NCBI RefSeq assembly: GCF_027594825.1
Contig: NZ_CP088930.1
Coordinates: 868,001-932,000 of the forward strand
DNA: 64,000 bases
Direction of reading: 5' to 3'
DNA from: Serratia liquefaciens
GTDB taxonomy: Bacteria; Pseudomonadota; Gammaproteobacteria; Enterobacterales; Enterobacteriaceae
The translations under genes and the position numbers were made by a program. Positions 6,562 to 52,242 of the stretch are shown one piece after another. The first letter of the stretch is position 1. Each line of letters begins with the position of its first letter. The notes beneath the pieces were generated by a model, which was not told the origin of the DNA, made no database searches, and saw only the letters and a list, made by a program, of their open reading frames with translations.

Positions 6562-8211
6562 TCAACGGATATTCAGCAGCGCGTCAAACATTGAGCTGGC
6601 GGTTTGAATGACCTGCGCATTAGCCATGTAATACTGCTGAAAACGCAGCAGTTCGCCGTACTCTTCGTCCAGGTTGACGCCGGAGATCGACTGCTGCTGG
6701 ACGGTCAATTGCTTGACGATATTGGCCTGAGAAGTCGCCGAAACCTTGGCCGATGCCGTCTGGTTGCCGACGCTGCTCACCATGCTGGCGTAGGCGCCGC
6801 TGAAGGTGGCTTTGCCGTCGACCAACTTTTTGGTCTGCAGGTCGAGCAGCTTTTTGGCGTTTTCGTTATCGCCGCGACCGCTGTCGTCTTTGCCGGCAGC
6901 GGCAATGTTCGCCGAGTCGGTAATGGCGACTTTCAGGCTGCCCGCCACGTCGCTGACCGGTTTCACGGTAAAGCTGTCGTTCTTTTGTGCCGTGCCGTCG
7001 ATATCGACCTTCAGGCCGTCAAAGCTCAGCGTCGGTTTGCCGGTGGTGGCATCGACGCCCGCCGTGGCGTTGACCTTGACGTTGTCCGGCAGGCGGCTGA
7101 CCTGCCAGTTGCTGCCGTCGAACTCCACCCGGTAATCGTTGGCCTTCACCTTGCTGGTATCGGTGTAGGACACCGACAGCGCCGCATCGCCGGCATTGCG
7201 GCTGTTATCCACCACGCGGCCGCCGCCGAAGCTGAAGAAGTCGGTGCCGGCGTCGCCGTTGAGATCGAACCCGGCACGGTGCTGCTGGTTAAAGCTGTCC
7301 GCCATCGCCAGCGCCAATTGCCCCAACTGGTTGCGTGCGCTATCCAGCGATTCGCTGCGGAACTTCAGTACGCCGCTGACGCTGCCGCTGGTTATTTGCC
7401 CTTCCGGCACTTCGCTGACGCCGTTGCCGCGGTTATAGCCGATGGTCAGGCGAGAAGGATCGCCGCTGGAGGGCACTGCCTCCACCTGGTAGGCATTGCT
7501 CCCCTGCACCAGCGTCAGGCCGTTGGCGAAAGACACGGTATAAGCGTCGCCGTCTTGCTGCATCACCTGCACGCCCACTACCTGGTTTAACTCAGTAACC
7601 AGTTGGTCACGCTGATCGAGCAAGGCATTGGGCTCACCGCCGCTGCCGCGCAGGCGGGTGATTTCATCGTTCAGTTTGGCGATTTGCTGGCTGTAGCTGT
7701 TGATCTGGTTAGCGCTGTCGCTGAGCTGTTGGTTAACGCCGCTGTCCATATCGCGCAGGTATTTGTCGGTGTTGTTGAACTGATTGACCAGCCCATTGGC
7801 CTTGCCCAGCACCGTTTGGCGCGCCGCGTCATCGCCGGCGTTGCTGACCAGGTTCTCCAGGTTGCTGAAGAAATCCTGCATGTTGGTCGACAAGGTATTG
7901 GTTTTGCTCGCCAGCAGGTTATCGATCTGCGAGATTTTCTCGAAGTAGGCGTTCTGTGCCCCGGCCTGGCTCTGTGCTCCGCGCAACTGATTGGTGATGA
8001 ACTGGTTGTACTCGCGGTTAACGCTGGTCACGGTGACGCCGTTGCCAATGAAGCCGCTCATGGTACTCATACCGCCGTTCTGCGCCAGGATCGCAGTCTG
8101 TCGGTTATAGCCTGCCACGTTGTAGTTAGAAATGTTGTTACTGACGGTGCTGAGCGCCACCTGAGCCGCATTCAGCCCGCTCATCGCGGTATTGATTAAG
8201 CTATTGGACAT
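6562..8211 (-). CDS. flgK: Flagellar hook-associated protein FlgK (HAP1)
   Basis: A 549-residue protein. The N-terminus (MSNSLINTAMSGLNAAQ, then NNISNYNVAGYNRQ) carries the rod/hook/HAP signature. The C-terminus (LDEEYGELLRFQQYYMANAQ) forms the partner helix of D0. FlgK caps the hook before filament assembly and is a FlgN client. A sigma-28 promoter stands about 80 bases upstream, and flgL follows. The middle domain is variable, as usual. Confidence 0.97.
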   Translation of the reverse strand: MSNSLINTAMSGLNAAQVALSTVSNNISNYNVAGYNRQTAILAQNGGMSTMSGFIGNGVTVTSVNREYNQFITNQLRGAQSQAGAQNAYFEKISQIDNLLASKTNTLSTNMQDFFSNLENLVSNAGDDAARQTVLGKANGLVNQFNNTDKYLRDMDSGVNQQLSDSANQINSYSQQIAKLNDEITRLRGSGGEPNALLDQRDQLVTELNQVVGVQVMQQDGDAYTVSFANGLTLVQGSNAYQVEAVPSSGDPSRLTIGYNRGNGVSEVPEGQITSGSVSGVLKFRSESLDSARNQLGQLALAMADSFNQQHRAGFDLNGDAGTDFFSFGGGRVVDNSRNAGDAALSVSYTDTSKVKANDYRVEFDGSNWQVSRLPDNVKVNATAGVDATTGKPTLSFDGLKVDIDGTAQKNDSFTVKPVSDVAGSLKVAITDSANIAAAGKDDSGRGDNENAKKLLDLQTKKLVDGKATFSGAYASMVSSVGNQTASAKVSATSQANIVKQLTVQQQSISGVNLDEEYGELLRFQQYYMANAQVIQTASSMFDALLNIR

Positions 8212-8289
8212 AAAAATTCCTTTTGCTGCGGCGCCGGTGGCCCACAGGAGTCAATTAATCTGCTGAGCCGTTCACTCAGCCTGTCTTGG

Positions 8290-8316
8290 TTATCGGCAAA
8301 AACGGGGGAAACTTGA
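8290..8316 (-). promoter_or_regulatory. Sigma-28 promoter for flgKL
   Basis: On the minus strand it reads TCAA, 15 bases, GCCGATAA. The -10 element is perfect and the -35 differs from TAAA at one base. It lies about 80 bases before the flgK ATG, a suitable place for a class III promoter. Confidence 0.75.
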
Positions 8317-41557: not shown

Positions 41558-42400
41558 CTAGGCGCCGATTTCGGTGCGCACATCCAACAGTTCAGGGAAG
41601 AAAGTCAACTCCAGCGCCTTTTTCAGGAAGCTGACGCCGCTCGAACCGCCGGTGCCTGTTTTAAAGCCGATAATCCGCTCCACCGTCTTCATGTGCCGGA
41701 AACGCCACAGGTGGAAGCTTTCCTCTATATCCACCAGCTTCTCGGCCATTTCATAGGCTTCCCAATACTTTTGCGGATGGTCATAGATCTCTTTAAAAGC
41801 CGGCAGCAGGTTTGGATTGCGTTGGTAAGGTTGGGTCCAGTCACGTTCAATACACTCCTGCGGGATCGGCAGACCGTGGCGGGACAGGTAAAGCAGGTAT
41901 TCATCGTACAGGCTGGGCGCTTCAAGAATGGCCTTCAGCGCCGCGTGTTTTTCCGCATCGTTGCTGAACACCGCCAGCATCGCCGCATTCTTGTTGCCGA
42001 GTAAAAATTCAATCGAACGGTATTGATGGGACTGGAAGCCCGACGAACTGCCCAGCACGTCGCGAAATTCGACGTACTCCGACGGCGTCAGGGTTTCCAG
42101 CACCGCCCATTGTTCGAACAGCAGCCGCTGGATCTGTTTGACCCGCGCCAGGATCTTGAAGCAGTGGCTGAGCTTATCTTGTTGCACCAGCATCCGCGCC
42201 GCCTGCAGTTCATGCAGCATCAACTTCATCCACAGTTCCGACGTCTGGTGCTGCACCACAAACAGCATTTCATCATGGTGTTGCGGGTTGGACAGCGGGT
42301 GCTGACAGTCCAGCAGTTGATCCAGGCACAGATAGTCGCCATAGCTCATGCGTTTGGAAAAATCGGTGACAATCGCGCTTTCTAATTCTCGTTTGTTCAT
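41558..42400 (-). CDS. kynA: Tryptophan 2,3-dioxygenase
   Basis: A 280-residue heme dioxygenase. It has [19 protein letters not shown] (distal-pocket His and substrate contacts), [20 protein letters not shown], the proximal region [20 protein letters not shown] and the mobile loop GTGGSSG. It opens the indole ring of L-tryptophan to N-formylkynurenine. No kynurenine formamidase or kynureninase is adjacent. It has its own GGAGAGAG site and a 250-base gap from the MaoC gene, so it may be a separate unit or the last member of the accessory operon. Confidence 0.93.
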
Positions 42401-42568
42401 CTGCTCTCTCCGCTGCGCTCACGGCCGGAAGCGGCGTGTAGCGTGCTGCAAACAGAAAACAATAGTCCATAACTCCCCGCCGCGAAGGACTATAAACGAG
42501 AGTTGCCTCGCAGATTTCAGGGTTGGTCATGCCAGGTTGACGCCCTCCTTATTAAGGCCTGAATTGCC

Positions 42569-42591
42569 CCCCGCAGTGATTATCTGCGGGG
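42569..42591. terminator. Hairpin between the MaoC operon and tryptophan dioxygenase
   Basis: CCCCGCAG-TGATTAT-CTGCGGGG forms a perfect 8-base stem 60 bases after the MaoC stop. No T-run follows on the minus strand, so read-through into the dioxygenase gene is possible. Confidence 0.5.
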
Positions 42592-42650
42592 ATGGGATCG
42601 GCGACGCCTGAGCATAAACATTGCTCTGCCGATCCCCAAACCGCTGAAAA

Positions 42651-43145
42651 TCAAGACTCTTTGTAATCTCGTCGCCGAACCATAAAGGAGCGTTCGAAGG
42701 TGATCACCGTCTCTCCCGTTGACTTGATACCCCGAGTTTCTACCGTGATGATGCCGTTGTGCGGTTGGGATTTTGACGGCCGTTTAGCCAGGATCCTGCT
42801 GGTGGCGTAAAGCGTATCGCCGACAAAAAGCGGCTCTTTCAGGCGCACCGTTTCCCAGCCCAGATTAGCCACCGCCCTGGCAGACAATGCCTGCACGGTC
42901 ATTCCGCTGACCAGCGCCAGCGTGATGCTGCTGTTGACCAAGACGCGGCCATATTCCGCTTGGGCGCCATAGGCCCGATCGAAATGCAAAGGATGCTGAT
43001 TCATCGTCAACAGGGTGAGCCAGGTGTTGTCGGCTTCGGAAAGCGTGCGCCCCGGCCAGTGCTTAATCGTCATGCCGGTTTCGAAGTCTTCATAGTCCCC
43101 ACCGTGCTCTTCCTGATACTCATTTTCGCCGACTTTTCTTAACAT
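42651..43145 (-). CDS. MaoC-like hot-dog enoyl-CoA hydratase
   Basis: A 164-residue single hot-dog protein. The hydratase signature is LTMNQHPLHFDRAYGAQAEY. The usual Asp of the Asp/His pair is Asn here, a form I recall from mesaconyl/itaconyl-CoA hydratase-type MaoC proteins. It probably adds or removes water on a CoA-thioester double bond; the substrate is unknown. It is the last gene of the eight-gene run, overlapping the preceding reductase by 7 bases. RipB of the itaconate pathway is the closest functional analogy, and it too works beside a CitE-type lyase. Confidence 0.82.
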   Translation of the reverse strand: MLRKVGENEYQEEHGGDYEDFETGMTIKHWPGRTLSEADNTWLTLLTMNQHPLHFDRAYGAQAEYGRVLVNSSITLALVSGMTVQALSARAVANLGWETVRLKEPLFVGDTLYATSRILAKRPSKSQPHNGIITVETRGIKSTGETVITFERSFMVRRRDYKES

Positions 43146-44089
43146 GGGGTTTTCTCCCTGAATGGGTATAGCGCCACCGCGGCAGCGGTGTCTTCAATGG
43201 CCAGCCCCACGCTGCGAAATACCGTGGTCTGCCCCGCCGTTGCCGCGGACTCACCCAGCACAAGAGCGCCCAGCTCATTGAGTCCTTCAGGCCGAATGTA
43301 TTCCTGCGCCAGAGCGCTTCGAACCTCCCCCGCATCCTCCCTGGCGGCCGCGCCGGTTTCCACCACCACAAAGGCGGTTTTCAATAACGCAGGGTCTACC
43401 TCAATAGCATCCTCGTGGGTGCCGCCGATAATGTTCAGGTGGGCTCCTGGCGCTACCCAATCGGCATACACCAAAGGTTCACGGGCATGGGTTGAGGTGG
43501 TGGTGCAGATAAGATCCGCCCCCTGCACGGCCTCGAATGCGCTACTGCAAACGCTGACCGGCGCGGTTGTCAGCGTACGGGCCCAGTGCGCAAACTCTTG
43601 CGTTCTGAGCGCCGAACGGGAAAAAATTCGCACCTTGCGGATCTGCCGCACCGCCAGCATCGCCAACAGCGTGGCGCGTGCCTGCACGCCCGCGCCCAGG
43701 ATGGCAAGATCGCCGGCCTGCTCAGGCGCGCACAGCTGGGTCGCCAGCCCGGCCACCGCGCCGGTTCGCACGGCGGTCAAACTTGCGCCGTCGAGCAAAG
43801 CCAGTATCTGGCCGGTATTGATGTCCGTGAGTACCACCACACCATGAATCAACGGCAGTCCATGCTCAGCATTGCCGGGCGTGAGCGTTGTGATTTTGAC
43901 GCTGGCGACACCGCGTCTGCTCCAGGCCGCCGGGCTGATCAAGGTCTCAGAAGGACCATGCTGGAGCAAGGTCCGCGTCGGCGATTGTTCGTCGCCACGA
44001 CGTAAATCCCCGAATGCCTCACTCAGCATCGCCATGACCTGCCGCAGTCGGATCTCTCCGGACATTTCGGCTGCATTGATGATTTGCAT
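43139..44089 (-). CDS. Ornithine cyclodeaminase/mu-crystallin family protein
   Basis: 316 residues from the ATG at 44089; a GTG at 44095 overlaps the aldolase stop. The Rossmann motif LAILGAGVQARATLLAM is intact, with VRTGAVAGLATQLCAPEQAG before it. The family includes ornithine cyclodeaminase, alanine dehydrogenase, SbnB-type N-(1-amino-1-carboxyl-2-ethyl)-glutamate dehydrogenase and ketimine reductases. These all make or reduce an amino-acid imine with NAD(P). The exact reaction cannot be read from sequence; reduction of a cyclic ketimine downstream of the aldolase would fit the cluster. Confidence 0.85.
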   Translation of the reverse strand: MQIINAAEMSGEIRLRQVMAMLSEAFGDLRRGDEQSPTRTLLQHGPSETLISPAAWSRRGVASVKITTLTPGNAEHGLPLIHGVVVLTDINTGQILALLDGASLTAVRTGAVAGLATQLCAPEQAGDLAILGAGVQARATLLAMLAVRQIRKVRIFSRSALRTQEFAHWARTLTTAPVSVCSSAFEAVQGADLICTTTSTHAREPLVYADWVAPGAHLNIIGGTHEDAIEVDPALLKTAFVVVETGAAAREDAGEVRSALAQEYIRPEGLNELGALVLGESAATAGQTTVFRSVGLAIEDTAAAVALYPFREKTPC

Positions 44090-44091
44090 CG

Positions 44092-45093
44092 TCACAGGGC
44101 GACCCTCTTTAACTGCGCGGCCACTTCTACGATAAGGTCTTCTTGCCCGGCCACCGCCTGGCGTTTTCCCAATTCGAAGAAGACATCACGCGGATCGACA
44201 CCCGCAGAGGCCGAATGGCTTAACACCGGGTTTTTGAAACCGGAAAAAACGCCGGCCAGGCCACTGACGATGCCCACGGAGTCGATCATCGGTGGGGTGA
44301 CCATCAGCTCCCGGGCGGCAAGCTCGGCAGCGTCCAGAAAATGATAAAGATCGATACCGGTGTTGAACCCCAAACGTTCCAGTACCGGCACCAGAACTTC
44401 AAGTTGGGTGTTCCCTGCCCCAGCTCCGAACCCGCGAGCGCAGCCATCAATCAGGGTAGCGCCGGCCTGAGCGGCGGCGACCGAGTTGGCCACCGCCATG
44501 CCCAAATTATTGTGGGCGTGGAAAATAAGCGGCACTTCCACCTGCCGCCGCATCGCGGTGATGCGTTCGGTCACATCCTGCGGCAACAGGTTGCCGGCAG
44601 AATCCATGATGCCAACGGCCTGCGCACCGTACTCCACCAGCAGTTGAGCCTGATCGGCTAACTGTTGGGGCGTGGCCATATGGCTCATCATCAGTACCGC
44701 ATGCGCCTCGACCCCGTGCTCACGCAGCCATCCCAGATGACGTTCGGCCAGGGTTGCCTCAGTGCAATGGGTCCCGATCCGCACCACATCCGCACCGCAG
44801 GATAACGCCTTCGCCAGATCGACGACGGTTCCCCAGCCCGGCAGCATAAATACGCCCATCTTGCTGTTTTGCAAACACTCGCGCACGGTGTTCAGCATGG
44901 TTTCATCACTTAACGCGGCGCGCCCGACCTGATACGAGGAGGCGCCAAGCCCGTTGCCATGGCCAACCTCGACAATCGCCACCCCCGTTTTATCCACCGC
45001 CGTCGCGTAGTCTCGTAACTGAGCCACCGTGAGTTGATGTTTCACCGCGTGTTGACCATCACGCAGGGTGGAGTCGTTAATCAGAATGGCCAT
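44092..45093 (-). CDS. DRE-TIM 4-hydroxy-2-oxoacid aldolase (MhpE/NikB-like)
   Basis: 333 residues from the ATG at 45093 ([20 protein letters not shown]). The DRE-TIM barrel motifs are present: TLRDGQHA (catalytic Arg, metal Asp), the metal ligands HAHNNLG, and the C-terminal DmpG-type communication domain. The family joins or splits pyruvate and an aldehyde (4-hydroxy-2-oxovalerate aldolase). It overlaps the aldehyde dehydrogenase gene by 17 bases, and the two normally form a channelled complex. No aromatic meta-cleavage genes are nearby, so a synthetic direction is plausible. Confidence 0.9.
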
Positions 45094-45964
45094 TAGCCCC
45101 CTCCGTTTTATTTCGATAGCTCGCATACTGTTCGGCAACCAGGATGGCGGCAGAATTGATCAGATCCAGATTCCCGGCGTATTCAGGCATCACCTTGCTG
45201 CTGGCAACCACCTCCAGCGAGACTGAAACGCGTCCTTCGCTGACGTTGAGCGCCGTAAGCGAATAGCCCGCCGAGAATCCCCGCACCGCTTCAACGGCCT
45301 CAGCAAGTACCGGAGCGATCTGTTCCTTTGTGACCCCAGGGATACCGGCAAAAATGGTGACCCTGAACATGGCGGGCGGCGTGGCCGGGCTGATATTAAG
45401 GATCGCCTTGGTGTTGGCTACGCCGGTAAAAGCGCTGAGCGCCCGCTGCGTGGTGTCCACATATTCGTCGATGTTGATCCGCGTGGCCCGCCCCAGAATA
45501 TTGCTGGCGACGGTCGCCACCACCTCGATATCGTTGATGCGAAAGTGTCGGCTCAGGGCATGCAGAATGGGTATCGACGCCTGTCCACCGCAGCTGATCA
45601 GGCTGACATTGCGCTCGGTCAGCGCATCGGTTCCCGTCACCGTAGGCACGATCATTTTGCCCAAGTGGCTGGGGGTTAAGTCGATCAGCAAGGAGCCCAG
45701 CGGACGCAGCAGCGCCCAATGCCTGACATGCGACATCGCGTTGGTGGCGTCGAAAACCACATCGAAAGGCGTTGGCGACGCCAAAACAGCGTCAATGCCA
45801 CCGGCGCTGGTTGGGCAGCCCAACCGGACGGCGGCCTCAAGACCGGCGGAGTCCTTGTTGCGCCCCGCCAGCAACCCGCAATGCAGCAGCGGGGAACGCT
45901 GGATCTTATTGACCAGATCCATGCCAATGGCGCCGGTTCCAATGACCGCAACGGAGAGCGTCAT
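45077..45964 (-). CDS. Acylating aldehyde dehydrogenase (MhpF/DmpF-like)
   Basis: 295 residues, somewhat shorter than MhpF (~316). It has an N-terminal Rossmann motif ([17 protein letters not shown]) and the catalytic Cys in [16 protein letters not shown]. It interconverts an aldehyde and acyl-CoA with NAD(H). Coupled by ATGA to the CitE-like gene and overlapping the aldolase gene. In nikkomycin biosynthesis a homologous pair (NikA/NikB) is reported to reduce picolinoyl-CoA and condense the aldehyde with a 2-oxoacid, a precedent for biosynthetic use. Confidence 0.9.
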
Positions 45965-46824
45965 GAGTTCCCCCTACTGAAACGAGCGGCCCAGGCCTTG
46001 CCTGATTGCAGGGTATTGCGCGCCATGCGGGCAAAGGGCGGCCCCACCATATGCCCATCCAGCAGCGCAATCCCGCCCTGGGCCGCTTTCACGGCATCGG
46101 TAATGCGGCTTGCCGCCAAAAGTGCGCTCTCGCAGGGCCGTAACGTCGAGTTGATCAGTTCAAGCTCGCTGGGATGAACGGTGGCTTTGCCGTGGAAGCC
46201 CAGATCTTTGACGCACTGAATTTCATTGGCCAACACGTCGGGTTCGGAAAGCCGATAATTGGCGGTATCGATACAGCCGATGCCGTGCCTGGCACTCGCC
46301 AACACCATCGCCTGGCGCGCGGCCAGCATCCCGGACCAGGTGATCGGCACCCCTAAAGTGGCCGCCAAATCTGCAGAGCCAAAAATCAGCCCATCCGCCA
46401 CCGCCGCGACATTGTCCAGATCGGTAATGGCCTCGACGGTCTCTATCGTCAGGTAAATTTCAGGGAACCTTCCGGCAGAGGCGAAGGTTTCGCGTAGGAA
46501 AACCACCTCGGCCGGGGTTCGAACCATCGACATCACGATAAAACTGGGCGTGGTTTGACCGGAACACAGCATCACCAAGTCATGCAAAGCGTCAATCGTG
46601 CCCAGCGCGTTGATCCGCACGGCAATATTGGCAGAGGGCGGCGCATTATCGAGAGCCGTGCGGCAAATGGTCCTGGCCTCCGCTTTTGCCGGGCCAGGTA
46701 CCGAGTCTTCCAAATCCATCAAATGCACATCGGCGTCATAAGACAGAGCCTTGACGACCCGGCTGAGCGACAAGGCCGGCGTGTACAGAATGCTGCGGGG
46801 AACAGCCCGGGCGATATCCGTCAT
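45961..46824 (-). CDS. CitE-like CoA-ester lyase (HpcH/HpaI superfamily)
   Basis: 287 residues from the ATG at 46824, which overlaps the upstream stop (ATGA). Motifs are RSILYTPAL, VHLMDLEDSVPGPAKAEAR (acidic metal site), AVRINALG, LTIETVEAI, FGSADLAATLG and KATVHPSEL. Such lyases cleave or form malyl-, citramalyl- or related CoA esters. No citrate lyase alpha/gamma subunits are present, so this is a stand-alone CitE homologue. With the MaoC hydratase it recalls RipB/RipC of itaconate degradation, but no CoA-transferase (RipA) is here. Confidence 0.85.
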   Translation of the reverse strand: MTDIARAVPRSILYTPALSLSRVVKALSYDADVHLMDLEDSVPGPAKAEARTICRTALDNAPPSANIAVRINALGTIDALHDLVMLCSGQTTPSFIVMSMVRTPAEVVFLRETFASAGRFPEIYLTIETVEAITDLDNVAAVADGLIFGSADLAATLGVPITWSGMLAARQAMVLASARHGIGCIDTANYRLSEPDVLANEIQCVKDLGFHGKATVHPSELELINSTLRPCESALLAASRITDAVKAAQGGIALLDGHMVGPPFARMARNTLQSGKAWAARFSRGNS

Positions 46825-48044
46825 TGCGGCCCCCTGACAGCAGAGATAACCTGGCACAGGCCGCGGATCTGCTCTTGCGTTTGTCCGGCTCGCATCATGA
46901 CCCGCAGGCCGGCGGTGCCTTTGGCGACGATAGGGAAAAACACCGGCGAGACATAGAAGCCAGCCTCTATCACCTGGCGCCCCGCCTCGATCACCCGGTC
47001 ATCGCTCATCGGCACCAGGCGGATCGGATAGGTATTGCCGCTTTGTTCCGTCGGGATCAGGGAATCGAACAGCGCGATGTTGTCGTACAGTTTCTTTTGT
47101 AACCGGGGCAATTCGGCCGTACGGTGAATTTCTGCCGACGCCAGGCTGGCGCCGATGGCCGCCGTATTCAGGTTTTGCGAGTAGTTGAGCCCGCCGCCAA
47201 AGCGTTCGACCAGGCGCAGCATCTGCTGCGAATAACCGTTGAGCAATATCGCCGCCCCGCTGGTGCCGAATGCTTTGTTGAGCGTGACAACCATAATGGT
47301 GTTTTCATCCAACGCCGGGCTATGGGAACGAACATAGCCAATACCGCGCTCGCCATAAGCGGAGATCGAATGCGAATCGTCGTAAAACACCATCAGGCCG
47401 TATTTGTCCTGCAGTTCAGCCAAGGCTTTGACCGGGGCATAGCCTCCCAGGCTATCGCTGCCGTCGACCACGTAACAGACCCGTTGATATTGTTTGCAGC
47501 AGTCTTCGATGAAATTCAGATCGTGGTAATTGCAGGTAACGACCTCGGTTTCATCGGCACAGGCGGGTTTGGCCGCCGCCAGCGACACGTGGGCGTGCTT
47601 ATCGAATATCATCAAAGGCCGCACGCCGTTGCCTAAATGGCCCGAGGCGATAAGCGGAAGCAAGCCGCCGCTGACGCTGCTCGCCGACACGCCGCTGAGC
47701 ACATCGGCCTGGAACAGCTCACCCAACGACGCCTCCAACTCCTTCATGGCAGGGAGCTGGACCCGGCTGCGGGCGATGCAATGATCCAGCACGCCGTAGC
47801 GGCGCACAGCGTCGATAGCGCCTTCGATCACCTTACTGTGGGAGTCCAGGTTCAGGTAGGAGCAGCAGCTGAAATTGACGAACTGATGGCCACTTGGGGT
47901 GGACAACAGGTCGTTATCGAGCCCGGCAACGATACCCGCAAGGCCGTTTTGCTCTGACATATCCCAGAAAGGATTGCCTATGCCGATGGCCTTATCGTTG
48001 TTACGGAATTTATTGGTGGGAATGATCTGCTTACGGCTGCTCAT
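46821..48044 (-). CDS. Alpha-oxoamine synthase-like PLP enzyme
   Basis: 407 residues from the ATG at 48044 (MSSRKQIIPTNKFRN), with GAGGAAGG upstream; a longer frame runs into the oxygenase gene. It is a fold-type I PLP enzyme of the BioF/Kbl/HemA/CqsA group. FVNFSCCSYLNLDSH resembles the group's glycine-rich start. VFYDDSHSISAYGERGIGY is the PLP-ring region and TLNKAFGTSGAAIL carries the Schiff-base Lys. These enzymes condense an amino acid with an acyl-CoA and lose CO2 to give an alpha-aminoketone. Substrates here are unknown. Confidence 0.85.
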   Translation of the reverse strand: MSSRKQIIPTNKFRNNDKAIGIGNPFWDMSEQNGLAGIVAGLDNDLLSTPSGHQFVNFSCCSYLNLDSHSKVIEGAIDAVRRYGVLDHCIARSRVQLPAMKELEASLGELFQADVLSGVSASSVSGGLLPLIASGHLGNGVRPLMIFDKHAHVSLAAAKPACADETEVVTCNYHDLNFIEDCCKQYQRVCYVVDGSDSLGGYAPVKALAELQDKYGLMVFYDDSHSISAYGERGIGYVRSHSPALDENTIMVVTLNKAFGTSGAAILLNGYSQQMLRLVERFGGGLNYSQNLNTAAIGASLASAEIHRTAELPRLQKKLYDNIALFDSLIPTEQSGNTYPIRLVPMSDDRVIEAGRQVIEAGFYVSPVFFPIVAKGTAGLRVMMRAGQTQEQIRGLCQVISAVRGPQ

Positions 48045-48897
48045 CAAGTGCCTTCCTCTTGGTGGGTTCTGGTTGATAGTTGTAGATGCCTTTAAACTTG
48101 CGGTAAGCCGCCGTGTAGAGCGCGGAGTAGAAAACATAAGGGCGGCGCAGGATTTTCAGATCCCACAGCCAAAAATTAACGTTGATATTCAGGTCGTCTA
48201 AAGATTCGGCCTGGTGCCACCACCCCAGCGGCAAATACAGCATCTCGCCGGGCTCTAAAATAAAGTCGCGGCGCTGCGGGATTTTTGCCGCCAAGCGGGG
48301 AAAACGCTGCGGGTCGATATTGTCAAAATCAAAAGCCTGGGATTTATCGCCGAACCCCTGCAGGATAGATCGCGGATAGTAATCTCTGCGGCCAGGAGGA
48401 AAAAGAATGAACCGTTTTCTGCCCTGCAAAGAAATATTAAAATTTTCCAGCTCATCGAAGTGGCTTTGGGTAAAGACCCCGTGGTAGCTGACCCATAAAT
48501 TGGCGGCGTTCAACCCACGACGGGAGGCCAACAGGGAAAAGGCATCGAAGCCAAGGATATTATTGACGTCCTCGGGGCGGTGCATAATATTAGAAACCAC
48601 GCGATACCAGGTATTGTTGTCGCTTTGGTACTCTTTATTTTCCAAAAAACCACGCAGCTGAATTTTCATGGTTTGCCAGCGTTCGGTGTTTTCTTTATTA
48701 CTGGCCTCCCGGAATAAGGTGACATTGTCATCGCCCAGGCGTTGTGAAATCAGGTCACTCGCCCCTATGCTGGTATCAATGGGTAAATCGGTAATAATGA
48801 CCGGGACATCGGCTCGGAAAATAGCTTCAACACCAAAGGCGACGAACTCTTTAAAGGTCATGCGTGGAACGGGAACCCCCGTCGTTAACTGTTTCAC
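48031..48897 (-). CDS. Cupin_8/JmjC-type Fe(II)/2-oxoglutarate oxygenase
   Basis: 288 residues with a GTG start and AGGAAAA upstream. The metal triad is clear: HFDELENFNISLQGRKRFIL (HxD) and the distal His in YLPLGWWHQAESL. The family hydroxylates proteins, peptides or small molecules. It lies 62 bases after the MFS gene and overlaps the PLP enzyme gene by 14 bases. Its base composition is richer in A and T than its neighbours, which suggests separate acquisition. The substrate could be an intermediate or a cluster product. Confidence 0.85.
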   Translation of the reverse strand: MKQLTTGVPVPRMTFKEFVAFGVEAIFRADVPVIITDLPIDTSIGASDLISQRLGDDNVTLFREASNKENTERWQTMKIQLRGFLENKEYQSDNNTWYRVVSNIMHRPEDVNNILGFDAFSLLASRRGLNAANLWVSYHGVFTQSHFDELENFNISLQGRKRFILFPPGRRDYYPRSILQGFGDKSQAFDFDNIDPQRFPRLAAKIPQRRDFILEPGEMLYLPLGWWHQAESLDDLNINVNFWLWDLKILRRPYVFYSALYTAAYRKFKGIYNYQPEPTKRKALDEQP

Positions 48898-48959
48898 GAT
48901 TGCCGTTTTCCTGTTTCGAAAATAATAATGTGAGGCCCCGCTATTCTGGGGCGCGGTTT

Positions 48960-50168
48960 TTATTTATTGCTGAGTAATTTCTGACTAAACAGGCTGGATA
49001 ATAAAGCGAGTGTTCCTGCGGCCATGGCGACCCAGGCCACCTGACCCGCTCCGCTTTGATCGGAAAGCTGTCCGCCAAGCGAGACGCCCAGTGAAAAGCC
49101 CAGCCAACCGGCGCTGGACAACCAGGAGAAGCCTTCGGATAAACACCCTTTCGGCGTCAAGGACTCCAGCAGGTTGCTGCAGGTGATCAATAACGGCGCC
49201 ACCGACAGCCCGGCGATAAAAGCGGAAATGCCCATGACAACGGGAACGCTGGTGAAAATCAGGGGCAGCGTGCCGGCGCACAGGGTGGCGGAGGTGATAA
49301 GCAGCAGGCGGGGTTGCGATAAAGACCAGTTCATGGCGCCGTAGCAAGTGCCGCCCACCAGGCTGCCTGCGGCGCAAATGGACAACAGCACCCCGGCGAG
49401 GGTTGGATTGCCCACCTCTTTGGCGTAGGCGATCATCATGACGTCGATTGAGCCAAGAAACAGGCCTACCGCCGCATAGGAGATCATTAGCGCCCGTACC
49501 CAGACCATGCTGATTGCCCGACGGTCGCTTTCTTCGCTCTTGTGCACAATAACCGGCTCAGAACGCCGATGTAACACCAGGGCCAGAGAACCGCTGAAGG
49601 TGAGCGCGGCGCATAACGCCAGCCCCGCTGCGGGGTGCCACGCCGTGGCCAAAACAATGGCGATTAACGGCCCCAACAAGAAAATGATCTCATCAAGCAC
49701 GGTTTCTAACGCGTACGCGGTTCGTAGCGCTTCGTCGGTCACCATGGCGGCCCAGCGAGTACGAATAAATCCATCCACCGGCACCGACGAACAACCGGTA
49801 GCAATGGCCGCCGCCATAATGGCCCATAAGTGCATATTCAGCAGCACCAGGCCAATTAACGAAAGGATCGCAATGACGTGGCAGCAGCAGGTAATAATAA
49901 GCACCTTTCGCTGACTGAATTTATCGGCAAATCGGCCTAATATCGGGCTGGCTATCGCCTGCGTAATCATTAATGTTCCCGCCACGGTTCCGGCAATCCA
50001 TAACGAGTCCATAGTGGCGGAAATCAACATTATGCAACTGATGGATCGCATCGCCACCGGAAACCTGACCAGCAGGCCAAACAATGAAAGCGTCGCATGT
50101 CCGGGATCAGACAATAATCGGGTATAAGAACCAAAACTGAACTTGGACTCAACGGCCTCTGTTTCCAT
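48960..50168 (-). CDS. MFS transporter
   Basis: A 402-residue protein with about twelve hydrophobic helices. The loop 2-3 type motif appears as GRFADKFSQRKVLIITCCCH. It is the first gene of the eight-gene run and probably exports the product or protects the cell; uptake is not excluded. The N-terminal cytoplasmic segment is ~30 residues. It follows a 600-base regulatory region shared with the M24 peptidase gene. Confidence 0.85.
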   Translation of the reverse strand: METEAVESKFSFGSYTRLLSDPGHATLSLFGLLVRFPVAMRSISCIMLISATMDSLWIAGTVAGTLMITQAIASPILGRFADKFSQRKVLIITCCCHVIAILSLIGLVLLNMHLWAIMAAAIATGCSSVPVDGFIRTRWAAMVTDEALRTAYALETVLDEIIFLLGPLIAIVLATAWHPAAGLALCAALTFSGSLALVLHRRSEPVIVHKSEESDRRAISMVWVRALMISYAAVGLFLGSIDVMMIAYAKEVGNPTLAGVLLSICAAGSLVGGTCYGAMNWSLSQPRLLLITSATLCAGTLPLIFTSVPVVMGISAFIAGLSVAPLLITCSNLLESLTPKGCLSEGFSWLSSAGWLGFSLGVSLGGQLSDQSGAGQVAWVAMAAGTLALLSSLFSQKLLSNK

Positions 50169-50305
50169 AGGGTGCTCTCAATAGAAATTCGCTAAAAAAA
50201 CGAATGAATATATCAATCGAACATACCCACTCATTTATTTGAACGGATACACTCAATGGAATAAATGATTTAAATATTTATTTATGCGCAACAATAAAGC
50301 GAAGG

Positions 50306-50509
50306 TAACGCGCTAAGGCGTTAATCCTTCTCTAATGGAGTTCAGGCCATAGGATATTGTTAGCGTTGAAATCATCCTGGTTAATAATGATTAATTCCCC
50401 ATCTTAAAAAGTCCCCGAAATTTATCATAAACAATTTTAATGCATGGGCATTAAGAATTAGCAACGCTAATCATTATTTACAAGAGCGTTTTTGCATCAC
50501 ATTGATGCA
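50306..50509. promoter_or_regulatory. Cluster of palindromes between the MFS and M24 genes
   Basis: The 601-base divergent gap (50169-50769) is AT-rich and has no supportable gene. Four perfect inverted repeats stand within it: TAACGC-N6-GCGTTA (50306-50323), TTAATGC-N4-GCATTAA (50437-50454), ATTAGC-N3-GCTAAT (50457-50471) and TGCATCA-N3-TGATGCA (50493-50509). The last three have centres about 18.5 and 37 bases apart, so dimers could bind on a repeating helical face. No dedicated regulator gene lies in the cluster. Confidence 0.55.
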
Positions 50510-50769
50510 TTATTGCATTCACAATTAAATACAGTGTGTTAGGTGTTAATTAAGGTGGAGATTATAATTTTCAGTCCGCGAATAACGCCCTCTGAACCAA
50601 ACTCTCTGGGACCTCTGGCGGTATAGCGGCGCAGAAAGCAGAAACTGTGCCGTAATCGTCATTTTTATTCCCTATTGGAGCCAAGTATTCCTGCCGCGCT
50701 TTATTTATGATGAAGGTTTGACGCGCGGGGACATTGGCCCTGACATTAACATCTACGCTAGGAGAACAC

Positions 50770-51996
50770 ATGGCTACAGGCATTGGCGGTTGTACGCCAC
50801 AACAGGCCCTGGAACAGCTGCAACCGCTCACGGACAACCCGCCTGAAATCGCCGAGGTGGAATACCGGCAACGCATTCAGCACGCACAGCGCCTGATGCG
50901 TGACAACGGCATTGACGCCTGCTACCTCAATGCCGGCAGCAATCTGCTCTATTTTACCGGTACCTCCTGGTCGCCCAGCGAACGTATGGTGGGCGCGGTG
51001 ATCCCGGCCGAGGGGGAAATCGCCTATATTGTGCCCTGGTTTGAGATCGGCACGTTCAGGGATACGCAGGTGATTGAGGGGGAAATATTTAGCTGGCATG
51101 AGGAAGAAGATCCCTATCGGTTGTTCTTCACCGTACTGGCCGCGCGTGGGCTGGCAGGCTCAGGCCGCCAACTCAAAGTGGCCATTTGCGAAACCGCATC
51201 GGTTACTCTGTTCCTCGGCCTGCAACAGCATGCCGGTGAGATAAAGTTGGTCAGCGCCCTGCCGGTCACCGGGTACTGCCGCAGCCGCAAATCGGCGGCC
51301 GAAATTGCGCTGATGCAAACCGCGAATAACATTACCCTGCGGGTCCAACAGGCGGCGGCAAGCATATTGCGCCCAGGGATCACCGCCAGAGAGCTGGTCG
51401 ATTTTGTCGATCAGGCCCATCGCAAAATGGGCACCACCGGCTCTTACTTCTGCATTGCACTGTTCGGATCCGATAGCGCGTTTCCTCATGGCGTAAAAGC
51501 CCCCAACCCGCTGCAATATAACGATGTCGTGCTGCTGGATACCGGCTGCCGCTACAAGGGGTACCTATCCGATATCACCCGAACTTATGTGTACGGCGAA
51601 GCCAACCCACGCCAACGCTTTGCCTGGCAGGCTGAACATGATGCGCAGGCTGCGGCATTTGCCGTTATCGCGCCCGGCGTACCCTGCCATAAAGTGGATG
51701 ACGCCGCGCGCGAAGCGCTGATTTCTCATGGTTTTGGGCCGGATTATCAACTGCCGGGGCTGCCGCACCGCACCGGGCACGGTATCGGGCTGGACATTCA
51801 TGAAGCGCCGTATCTGATCCGCAAGCAGCAGGAGCCGCTCGACGTGGGCATGTGCGCCAGTATCGAACCCATGCTATGCCTGCCGGGCGAGTTCGGCATT
51901 CGTCTTGAGGATCATTTCTACGTCACTGAAAACGGGGCTCGCTGGTTTACCCCCCCGGCAAAATCTATTGATGATCCCTTTGGTTTAGCCTCCTGA
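50770..51996 (+). CDS. M24-family aminopeptidase (Xaa-Pro/creatinase type)
   Basis: 408 residues from the ATG at 50770, with GGAG six bases upstream. A creatinase-type N-domain (ACYLNAGSNLLYFTGTSWSP) precedes a pita-bread domain. The metal ligands are in VVLLDTGCRYKGYLSDITRT (two Asp), GLPHRTGHGIGLDIHE (His), SIEPMLCLPG (Glu) and IRLEDHFYV (Glu). Intracellular Xaa-Pro peptidases of this type trim peptides. Its position between the pathway operon and the microcin-like gene may be meaningful or incidental. A terminator follows. Confidence 0.9.
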   Translation: MATGIGGCTPQQALEQLQPLTDNPPEIAEVEYRQRIQHAQRLMRDNGIDACYLNAGSNLLYFTGTSWSPSERMVGAVIPAEGEIAYIVPWFEIGTFRDTQVIEGEIFSWHEEEDPYRLFFTVLAARGLAGSGRQLKVAICETASVTLFLGLQQHAGEIKLVSALPVTGYCRSRKSAAEIALMQTANNITLRVQQAAASILRPGITARELVDFVDQAHRKMGTTGSYFCIALFGSDSAFPHGVKAPNPLQYNDVVLLDTGCRYKGYLSDITRTYVYGEANPRQRFAWQAEHDAQAAAFAVIAPGVPCHKVDDAAREALISHGFGPDYQLPGLPHRTGHGIGLDIHEAPYLIRKQQEPLDVGMCASIEPMLCLPGEFGIRLEDHFYVTENGARWFTPPAKSIDDPFGLAS

Positions 51997-52002
51997 TCTC
52001 CC

Positions 52003-52025
52003 TTCGGGCGGCGATGCCGCCCGAA
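52003..52025 (+). terminator. Terminator of the M24 peptidase gene
   Basis: TTCGGGCGGC-GAT-GCCGCCCGAA is a perfect 10-base stem with a 3-base loop 6 bases after the stop, followed by TTAAAAG. It separates the peptidase from the microcin-like gene transcriptionally. Confidence 0.75.
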
Positions 52026-52242
52026 TTAAAAGATAAGCCGGCCAATGAGAATAGCGGTTATTAATATCGATTTCATTTAGTCATCTTATTTAATTCTTCA
52101 GTTTAATATAACTATTAATTTATAACGCCATCCTAACCCAAGAATAAAATAACGGTTGATATAGCAAATGACTTGAGCTAATAATTAATCGACCTTCAAG
52201 GACAGATATAATAAAAAACCATAAATTAAAAAGGAGTGAGTT

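Follow-up and report, generated by a model that had tools for sequence, protein, structure and literature searches.

The stretch analysed here, hereafter the window, comprises 64,000 nucleotides from a Serratia liquefaciens genome of 5.35 Mb contained in one contig (NZ_CP088930.1, positions 868,001 to 932,000). Eight genes, labelled A to H, lie at 42651..50168 of the window on the minus strand, and all eight frames are open. They form an operon which an earlier sequence-only reading had taken for an undescribed small-molecule pathway, and which is compared here with gene sets of the ketomemicin kind. Gene families were assigned by Pfam and NCBIfam profile searches, the bit scores being set against curated cut-offs. 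Each of the eight families named in that reading was recovered, and its coordinates and single strand were confirmed:

48960..50168, minus strand: A, MFS transporter, probable exporter, 402 aa (PF07690)
48031..48897, minus strand: B, JmjC/cupin_8 iron/2-oxoglutarate oxygenase, FIH/JMJD5-like, 288 aa (PF13621, Cupin_8/JmjC_2; FIH matches)
46821..48044, minus strand: C, pyridoxal phosphate (PLP)-dependent alpha-oxoamine synthase (AOS), 407 aa (NF005697)
45961..46824, minus strand: D, HpcH/HpaI (CitE/RipC-like) aldolase, 287 aa (PF03328)
45077..45964, minus strand: E, acylating aldehyde dehydrogenase of the DmpF type, 295 aa (TIGR03215)
44092..45093, minus strand: F, 4-hydroxy-2-oxo acid aldolase of the DmpG type, 333 aa (TIGR03217)
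43139..44095, minus strand: G, ornithine cyclodeaminase (OCD)/mu-crystallin-family reductase, 318 aa (PF02423)
42651..43145, minus strand: H, MaoC dehydratase, 164 aa (RipB-like; PDB matches)

Genes A and B are separated by a gap of 62 bp, and all following junctions are overlaps, of 14 (B-C), 4 (C-D), 4 (D-E), 17 (E-F), 4 (F-G) and 7 bp (G-H), within the range of 1 to 17 bases given earlier for the junctions past the first. These lengths were computed with starts picked from homologue starts and upstream sequence, the most likely being 48044 for C (407 aa), 45093 for F and 46824 for D. The dN/dS ratio is 0.03-0.15 across A-H (three Serratia pairs, with dS partly saturated).

The AOS encoded by C meets the cut-off of the PRK07505 subfamily (NF005697, 545.6 vs 342 bits); its Lys257, presumably the PLP lysine, is invariant in 35 sequences, and its closest solved structure is Alb29 (PDB 8xha, phmmer E 1.4e-90). 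E exceeds the acetaldehyde dehydrogenase cut-off (TIGR03215, 286.6 vs 282.25) and F that of 4-hydroxy-2-oxovalerate aldolase (TIGR03217, 381.9 vs 286). Cys125 of E, taken here as catalytic, is invariant in 33 sequences, and the motifs RDGxHA and HxHxN of F are kept in 33 sequences, RDGxH being assumed to be the catalytic motif. With both equivalog cut-offs reached and these residues retained, E and F can be regarded as a DmpF/DmpG pair. D and H were considered as members of the RipC and RipB families, and rejected, as both are under the equivalog cut-offs (166.7 bits against 375 and 195.2 against 340, respectively); D is also under the curated cut-offs for citrate lyase proper. Structures matched by H are a MaoC dehydratase (4e3e, E 5e-30) and a beta-methylmalyl-CoA dehydratase (8hgn, E 3.7e-27). 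In B, H146, D148, K161 and H228 are invariant in 34 sequences, and the conserved H/D/H is presumably the iron-binding triad (residue positions in B, C and E were counted by hand). None of the 16 NCBIfam matches of G reaches its cut-off, including the ornithine cyclodeaminase and pyrroline-2-carboxylate reductase equivalogs. The solved structures nearest to G comprise ketimine reductases, pyrroline-2-carboxylate reductases and an alanine dehydrogenase, and G retains an Arg and a Lys aligning with those by which ketimine reductases bind the substrate carboxylate. At the level of gene family, these assignments favour the earlier proposal of a small-molecule pathway free of nonribosomal peptide synthetase (NRPS) and polyketide synthase (PKS), drawing on an amino acid and acyl-CoA carbon and ending in export.

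The AOS gene was found in 9 of 30 Serratia genomes and in 6 of 295 genomes of a wider-family sample (E<=1e-60 in both), two of the six being Serratia; in a class sample of 360 genomes, only the window's own genome was positive (E<=1e-110). A copy of the operon is also carried by genome G301, given as the same species as the window's, and a 100% identical AOS occurs in a public record of Serratia liquefaciens. Among the best 120 of 456 matches of a protein search (E<=1e-60), a homologue from Xenorhabdus hominickii is 87% identical. AOSs 67-75% identical are found in public genomes of Saccharothrix, Labedaea and Streptomyces, and surveys at E<=1e-110 detected the gene in 12 of the 390 genomes sampled from the family to which the Labedaea genome belongs, which we take to be Pseudonocardiaceae, and in 13 of 392 Streptomyces genomes.

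Loci fetched for context are designated by L-numbers. The A-H order is kept in eight further Serratia loci. All hits of both actinomycete surveys were included (25 loci), and L150 was added later, for a total of 26. Two layouts prevail in the 25: A-B-C-D-E-F-G followed by inverted H and a conserved protein X (layout 1, 15 loci), and E-F-B-C-D-G-X-H (layout 2, 8 loci, Streptomyces). All of B-H, with X beside H, are held by 23 of the 25; with L150 counted, B-H are present in 23 of 26 and X in 24 of 26. L072 and L075 are without E, F and X, L075 also without H, and L150 is without E and F in the stretch fetched. A homologue of A is near C in all 8 other Serratia loci and in 17 of the 26 actinomycete loci. 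On a Rhizobium lusitanum plasmid the order is F-E-carbamoyltransferase-C-D-H-G. The search for the gene order across genomes, suggested in the sequence-only reading, thus retrieved it intact in Serratia and with H inverted in 15 of the 25 actinomycete loci; rather than being conserved independently of each other, the genes travel together, as a unit, across phyla.

The context survey covered 62 AOS loci, a gene being counted as a neighbour when found within 7 kb of C. Five groups make up 48 of them: 8 Serratia, 26 actinomycete, 1 Rhizobium, 3 other enterobacterial and 10 intermediate loci, the last being all matches with an AOS 38-47% identical to C. The other 14 are six loci with an AOS at E ~1e-36 to 1e-39 (6 of 11 such matches), L024 (E 6e-82) and seven hand-picked plasmid AOS loci; the plasmid locus L071, fetched for F and devoid of AOS, is outside the 62. 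Within the five groups, D is near C in 48/48 loci and H in 47/48, while neither D nor H was found in the other 14. As loci were fetched for their AOS, and groups were set after some contexts (L024, the plasmid loci) were known, the fair figure is that C, D and H occur together in 47 of the 62 AOS loci examined. In the intermediate group both D and H are beside C in 10/10 loci, four of which also carry a PGM1-type peptide ligase.

The reductase accompanying this triad is of two kinds. G is present in 39 of the 48 group loci and a zinc-type dehydrogenase of the medium-chain dehydrogenase/reductase (MDR) superfamily in 6; three loci have neither, and none has both. Four of the six MDR loci also hold a PGM1-type peptide ligase. 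G is also present where E/F were not found, as in L072, L075, L150, the three enterobacterial loci and L143. The loci cannot be counted as independent, the 8 from Serratia being close kin, but G-bearing loci occupy three distinct branches of the AOS tree and MDR-bearing loci a single one. No MDR-type match was found among the window's eight genes, or within 7 kb of C in the 8 Serratia loci (three have a weak match, E ~1e-14, farther out), and no PGM1-type peptide ligase near C in 8/8 Serratia loci.

The gene set had been thought to be without precedent, a view which the recurrence of C-D-H in loci resembling ketomemicin clusters contradicts. The ketomemicin architecture includes an AOS/CitE/MaoC triad, an enoyl reductase and a PGM1-type peptide ligase, and its carbonylmethylene unit is said to have been assigned to KtmA/KtmB/KtmC/KtmF by Kawata et al. 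in 2017. The ligase-bearing L138 and L142, whose D, C and H are 34%, 42% and 51-53% identical to those of the window, are taken here to be ketomemicin-like on the basis of their genes. The operon would then be a variant of the same kind, with an OCD-family gene where others have an MDR. By this analogy, it may well encode, and in our judgement rather probably does, a ketomemicin-like pathway to a ketomethylene (carbonylmethylene) pseudodipeptide, H2N-CH(R1)-CO-CH2-CH(R2)-COOH.

In such a pathway, E would convert an acyl-CoA to an aldehyde, which F would add to pyruvate, or to another 2-oxo acid, to yield a 4-hydroxy-2-oxo acid. D would join the latter to acetyl- or malonyl-CoA, giving a 2-substituted malyl-CoA, to be dehydrated by H to a substituted fumaryl-CoA. 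G would deliver a hydride to the carboxylate-bearing carbon of this compound, and decarboxylative condensation of the resulting substituted succinyl-CoA with an amino acid would be the task of C. B could hydroxylate the product or a precursor, and A would export the product.

The assignment of G as the enoyl reductase follows from the ketomemicin parallel, which fills the places of D, H and C and leaves that of the reductase open. G would suit it, as it is NAD(P)H-dependent by family, its Arg and Lys have aligned counterparts in ketimine reductases, and HOOC-C(R)=CH-CO-SCoA is similar to HOOC-C(R)=N. Its occurrence in triad loci lacking an MDR, and never together with one, likewise points to enoyl reduction, so that the imine reduction proposed earlier is probably wrong. 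The product would probably mimic a small dipeptide, with a carbon link in place of the peptide bond, and be made by means of a reductase from a family unexpected in that role.

The operon is part of an acquired island, which also holds a divergently oriented M24 peptidase gene. The gene inventory of the sequence-only reading was correct for the eight genes and missed this ninth one. The features concerned are the following:

42527..52144 (~9.6 kb), no strand assigned: acquired island, delimited by blastn against the operon-less Serratia stretches L039 and L042
50169..50733, no strand assigned: intergenic A/M24 region, where divergent promoters are expected from the layout of the open reading frames
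50734..51996, plus strand: M24 metallopeptidase, Xaa-Pro dipeptidase-like, start uncertain (proline dipeptidase 4r60, E 4.8e-115; conserved residues)

In L039 and L042, the sequence matching window positions 42518-42526 joins that matching 52145 across only 0.21-0.22 kb (blastn). Six operon-less stretches were compared in all, two matching on both sides and four on the left side only. The GC content of the operon is 57.7% vs 57.0% for the remaining window, so by this measure the island does not look recent. Promoter and terminator scans performed no better than on shuffled sequences, and identified no promoter in the A/M24 intergenic region. A tryptophan 2,3-dioxygenase-family gene at 41558-42400 was considered as an operon member and rejected, being present (95-100% identity) in 26/30 Serratia genomes, whether or not these carry the operon.

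In a tree of concatenated C-H (33 loci, rooted on R. lusitanum), Serratia branches next to the actinomycetes as a whole. Trees of single genes are in conflict, those of B, D and G placing L072 next to Serratia. With more outgroups, the AOS tree has Serratia within the actinomycetes, as sister to six loci including L072 and L095-L097 (support 0.99; nodes above, 0.63 and 0.23). In one alignment the row of L022 was out of frame and was disregarded. An actinomycete source of the operon is therefore likely from the trees, although not proven.

The M24 product is nearest to proline dipeptidases. The gene occurs in 11 of 30 Serratia genomes, 9 of them carrying the operon and 2 carrying M24 elsewhere. 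An M24 gene is a neighbour of C, within 7 kb, in all 8 other Serratia loci and in 10 of the 26 actinomycete loci. Such a gene adjoins 9 of the 13 Streptomyces loci, namely 5/5 of layout 1, where it is divergent from A as in Serratia, and 4/8 of layout 2, and was found in 0/12 Labedaea-family loci within the fetched stretches. Two actinomycete M24 proteins were scanned, and both contain the aminopeptidase P N-domain PF05195, which places them in an M24 subfamily other than that of the Serratia protein. The association would be explained if the peptidase protected the producer, either as an insensitive copy of the target or by hydrolysing a peptide mimic.

A more extended hypothesis, which we put forward only tentatively, would be that an OCD/mu-crystallin enzyme was recruited as an enoyl-CoA reductase, acting on C=C rather than C=N, in place of the MDR; that the 4-hydroxy-2-oxo acid side chain is produced within the pathway, which moved between actinomycetes and Serratia; and that the product is a dipeptide isostere targeting Xaa-Pro (M24) peptidases, the cluster carrying a protecting copy.

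Several observations weigh against the pseudodipeptide interpretation. D and H are under the RipC and RipB cut-offs, so their family does not fix substrate or direction. Among solved structures, G is closest to imine reductases, and we know of no enoyl-reductase precedent in the OCD family. In the template, the ketomemicin unit is built from a 2-oxo acid and malonyl-CoA by aldolase, dehydratase, reductase and a PLP enzyme adding arginine, a scheme which gives no place to the oxygenase B. In the survey, L024 and the seven plasmid AOS loci (38-44% identical) are without D and H, so an AOS alone is no sign of the triad, and L024 was placed among the comparison loci after its missing D and H were seen. 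The triad loci L134, L135 and L137 have neither G nor MDR, and three of the six MDR loci themselves supplied the sequences for the MDR search model. As for the peptidase, two operon-less Serratia genomes (L040, L041) carry M24, and it was not found near C in 16/26 actinomycete loci.

The structural relatives of G named above would fit a two-part convergent route, in which G acts on the 4-hydroxy-2-oxo acid from E/F, either by reductive amination to a 4-hydroxy amino acid or by reducing it as a cyclic imine to a proline-like imino acid, and the outcome is coupled by C to an unsaturated dicarboxylic acyl-CoA from D/H. The product would be an aminolevulinate-like or proline-like antimetabolite, obtained without enoyl reduction, and a neighbouring Xaa-Pro-type M24 gene would suit an imino acid. 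Such a route is, however, difficult to reconcile with the presence of G in the loci listed above where E/F were not found, and leaves the mutual exclusion of G and MDR unexplained; we consider it unlikely. A catabolic operon, degrading a product or plant compound to acetyl-CoA and pyruvate through a RipB/RipC- and DmpF/DmpG-like chain, with A as importer, would agree with the catabolic pairs represented in the curated families matched. It seems very improbable, as the eight genes include no ring-cleavage dioxygenase, hydrolase, vinylpyruvate hydratase or CoA ligase, and the AOS reaction is an irreversible C-C bond formation, according to part of the text of PMC11906848. The sparse occurrence in actinomycetes (12/390 and 13/392 genomes) and the peptide ligases of related triad loci also give the cluster the look of specialised metabolism.

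Independently of the chemistry, the operon might make an already known molecule with a published cluster, which we regard as doubtful. The cluster is not very rare, as shown by the same actinomycete counts (AOS, E<=1e-110), and the literature search covered few subscription journals. Within that scope, titles and abstract openings on the gene set returned no description of the eight-gene operon, and no claim is made that it is unpublished.

Among variants of the pseudodipeptide gene set, L072 (12799-17677) has P450, HpaB-type hydroxylase, aminotransferase and O-methyltransferase genes beside A-B-C-D-G-H, in the absence of E/F, which is what one would expect if supplying the 2-oxo acid were the sole function of E/F; it possibly makes an aromatic version of the product, from an aromatic 2-oxo acid. 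The R. lusitanum cluster (plasmid p_1, L046:2253-14356) has a NodU/CmcH-type O-carbamoyltransferase between E and C, along with a GNAT/FemAB-like enzyme, an SDR and a SATase_N protein, a content which suggests a carbamoylated relative. L150 and L138 share one actinomycete genome, L138 comprising the triad, PGM1 ligase and MDR, and L150 comprising B, C, D, G, X, H and M24, with no E/F in the stretch fetched. L022, L023 and L025, from other enterobacterial genera, show C-D-H-G together with a methyltransferase and a pair of JmjC-type oxygenases; in L022 there is, in addition, a protein with a weak AMP-binding match under cut-off, and the AOS gene of L025 is split over two frames. In L040 the M24 gene (7083-8309) lies between an AraC-type regulator and a cation-efflux gene.

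Protein X (~444 aa) is strongly conserved beside H in L033 (15550-16884) and 23 other actinomycete loci, and an X-related protein is found in 7/8 layout-2 loci. X gave no match in Pfam (three proteins), NCBIfam (two) or PDB, and its predicted model has a pLDDT of 49.7. A first, motif-based assignment as an ATP-grasp ligase was discarded, in view of the lack of a family match and of a profile match to two ligases.

Further loci were obtained with C or F as the query. On the rhizobial conjugative plasmids L047, L048 and L049, an AOS 41-44% identical to C is near response-regulator, acetolactate synthase-like and aminotransferase genes, and could belong to a signalling system like that of CqsA. 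On plasmids of Pantoea and Rahnella (L051, L052), an AOS is accompanied by three ATP-grasp proteins, a TauD oxygenase, an FMN monooxygenase and an MFS protein; this peptide-type cluster is possibly PNP-3. Homologues of F occur in biosynthetic-looking plasmid clusters (two regions viewed). One, from Phaeobacter piscinae (L071:209-6000), contains an L-amino acid ligase-like ATP-grasp protein, DmpG, DmpF, an aminotransferase and an MFS protein, and is a possible minimal biosynthetic use of the pair. The other, from Streptomyces (L070:4827-14820), combines a DmpF/DmpG pair (DmpG ~70% identical to F) with ketosynthase III, acyl carrier protein, NRPS and 4-hydroxyphenylacetate 3-hydroxylase-type genes.

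If the pseudodipeptide interpretation is correct, the signature of AOS, CitE and MaoC, completed by a reductase of the MDR or the OCD family, would find ketomethylene peptide mimics, a class of protease-inhibitor scaffold, where NRPS and PKS genes are missing, and new chemistry would be predicted for the OCD/mu-crystallin family. The operon would also be of a natural-product type common to actinomycetes and enterobacteria.

Known systems resemble the operon in different parts. Alb29, an AOS from Streptomyces albogriseolus related to C, is a natural-product enzyme condensing L-Glu with acyl-CoAs, according to portions of two papers (PMC11906848, PMC10230504). The Pantoea clusters PNP-1 and PNP-3 are likewise described as eight-gene clusters in Enterobacterales; the accounts give PNP-1 a different gene content, so that the operon was rejected as PNP-1, and report PNP-3 from Pantoea only. 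The RipB/RipC pair of itaconate degradation represents the curated families nearest to H and D, the window pair being far under the cut-offs and in a biosynthetic context. In nikkomycin biosynthesis, the DmpF/DmpG pair NikA/NikB leads to a 4-hydroxy-2-oxo acid. Judged by description, the likeness is in the supply of this acid, as proposed for E/F, and the difference is that the nikkomycin step involves no AOS, CitE or MaoC. The likeness to ketomemicin clusters is in the adjacent AOS, HpcH/CitE aldolase and MaoC genes (C, D and H), the same triad being found in PGM1-ligase loci; the window differs by its OCD-family G in place of an MDR, by the lack of a PGM1 ligase, and by the additional E/F pair, JmjC oxygenase and M24 peptidase.

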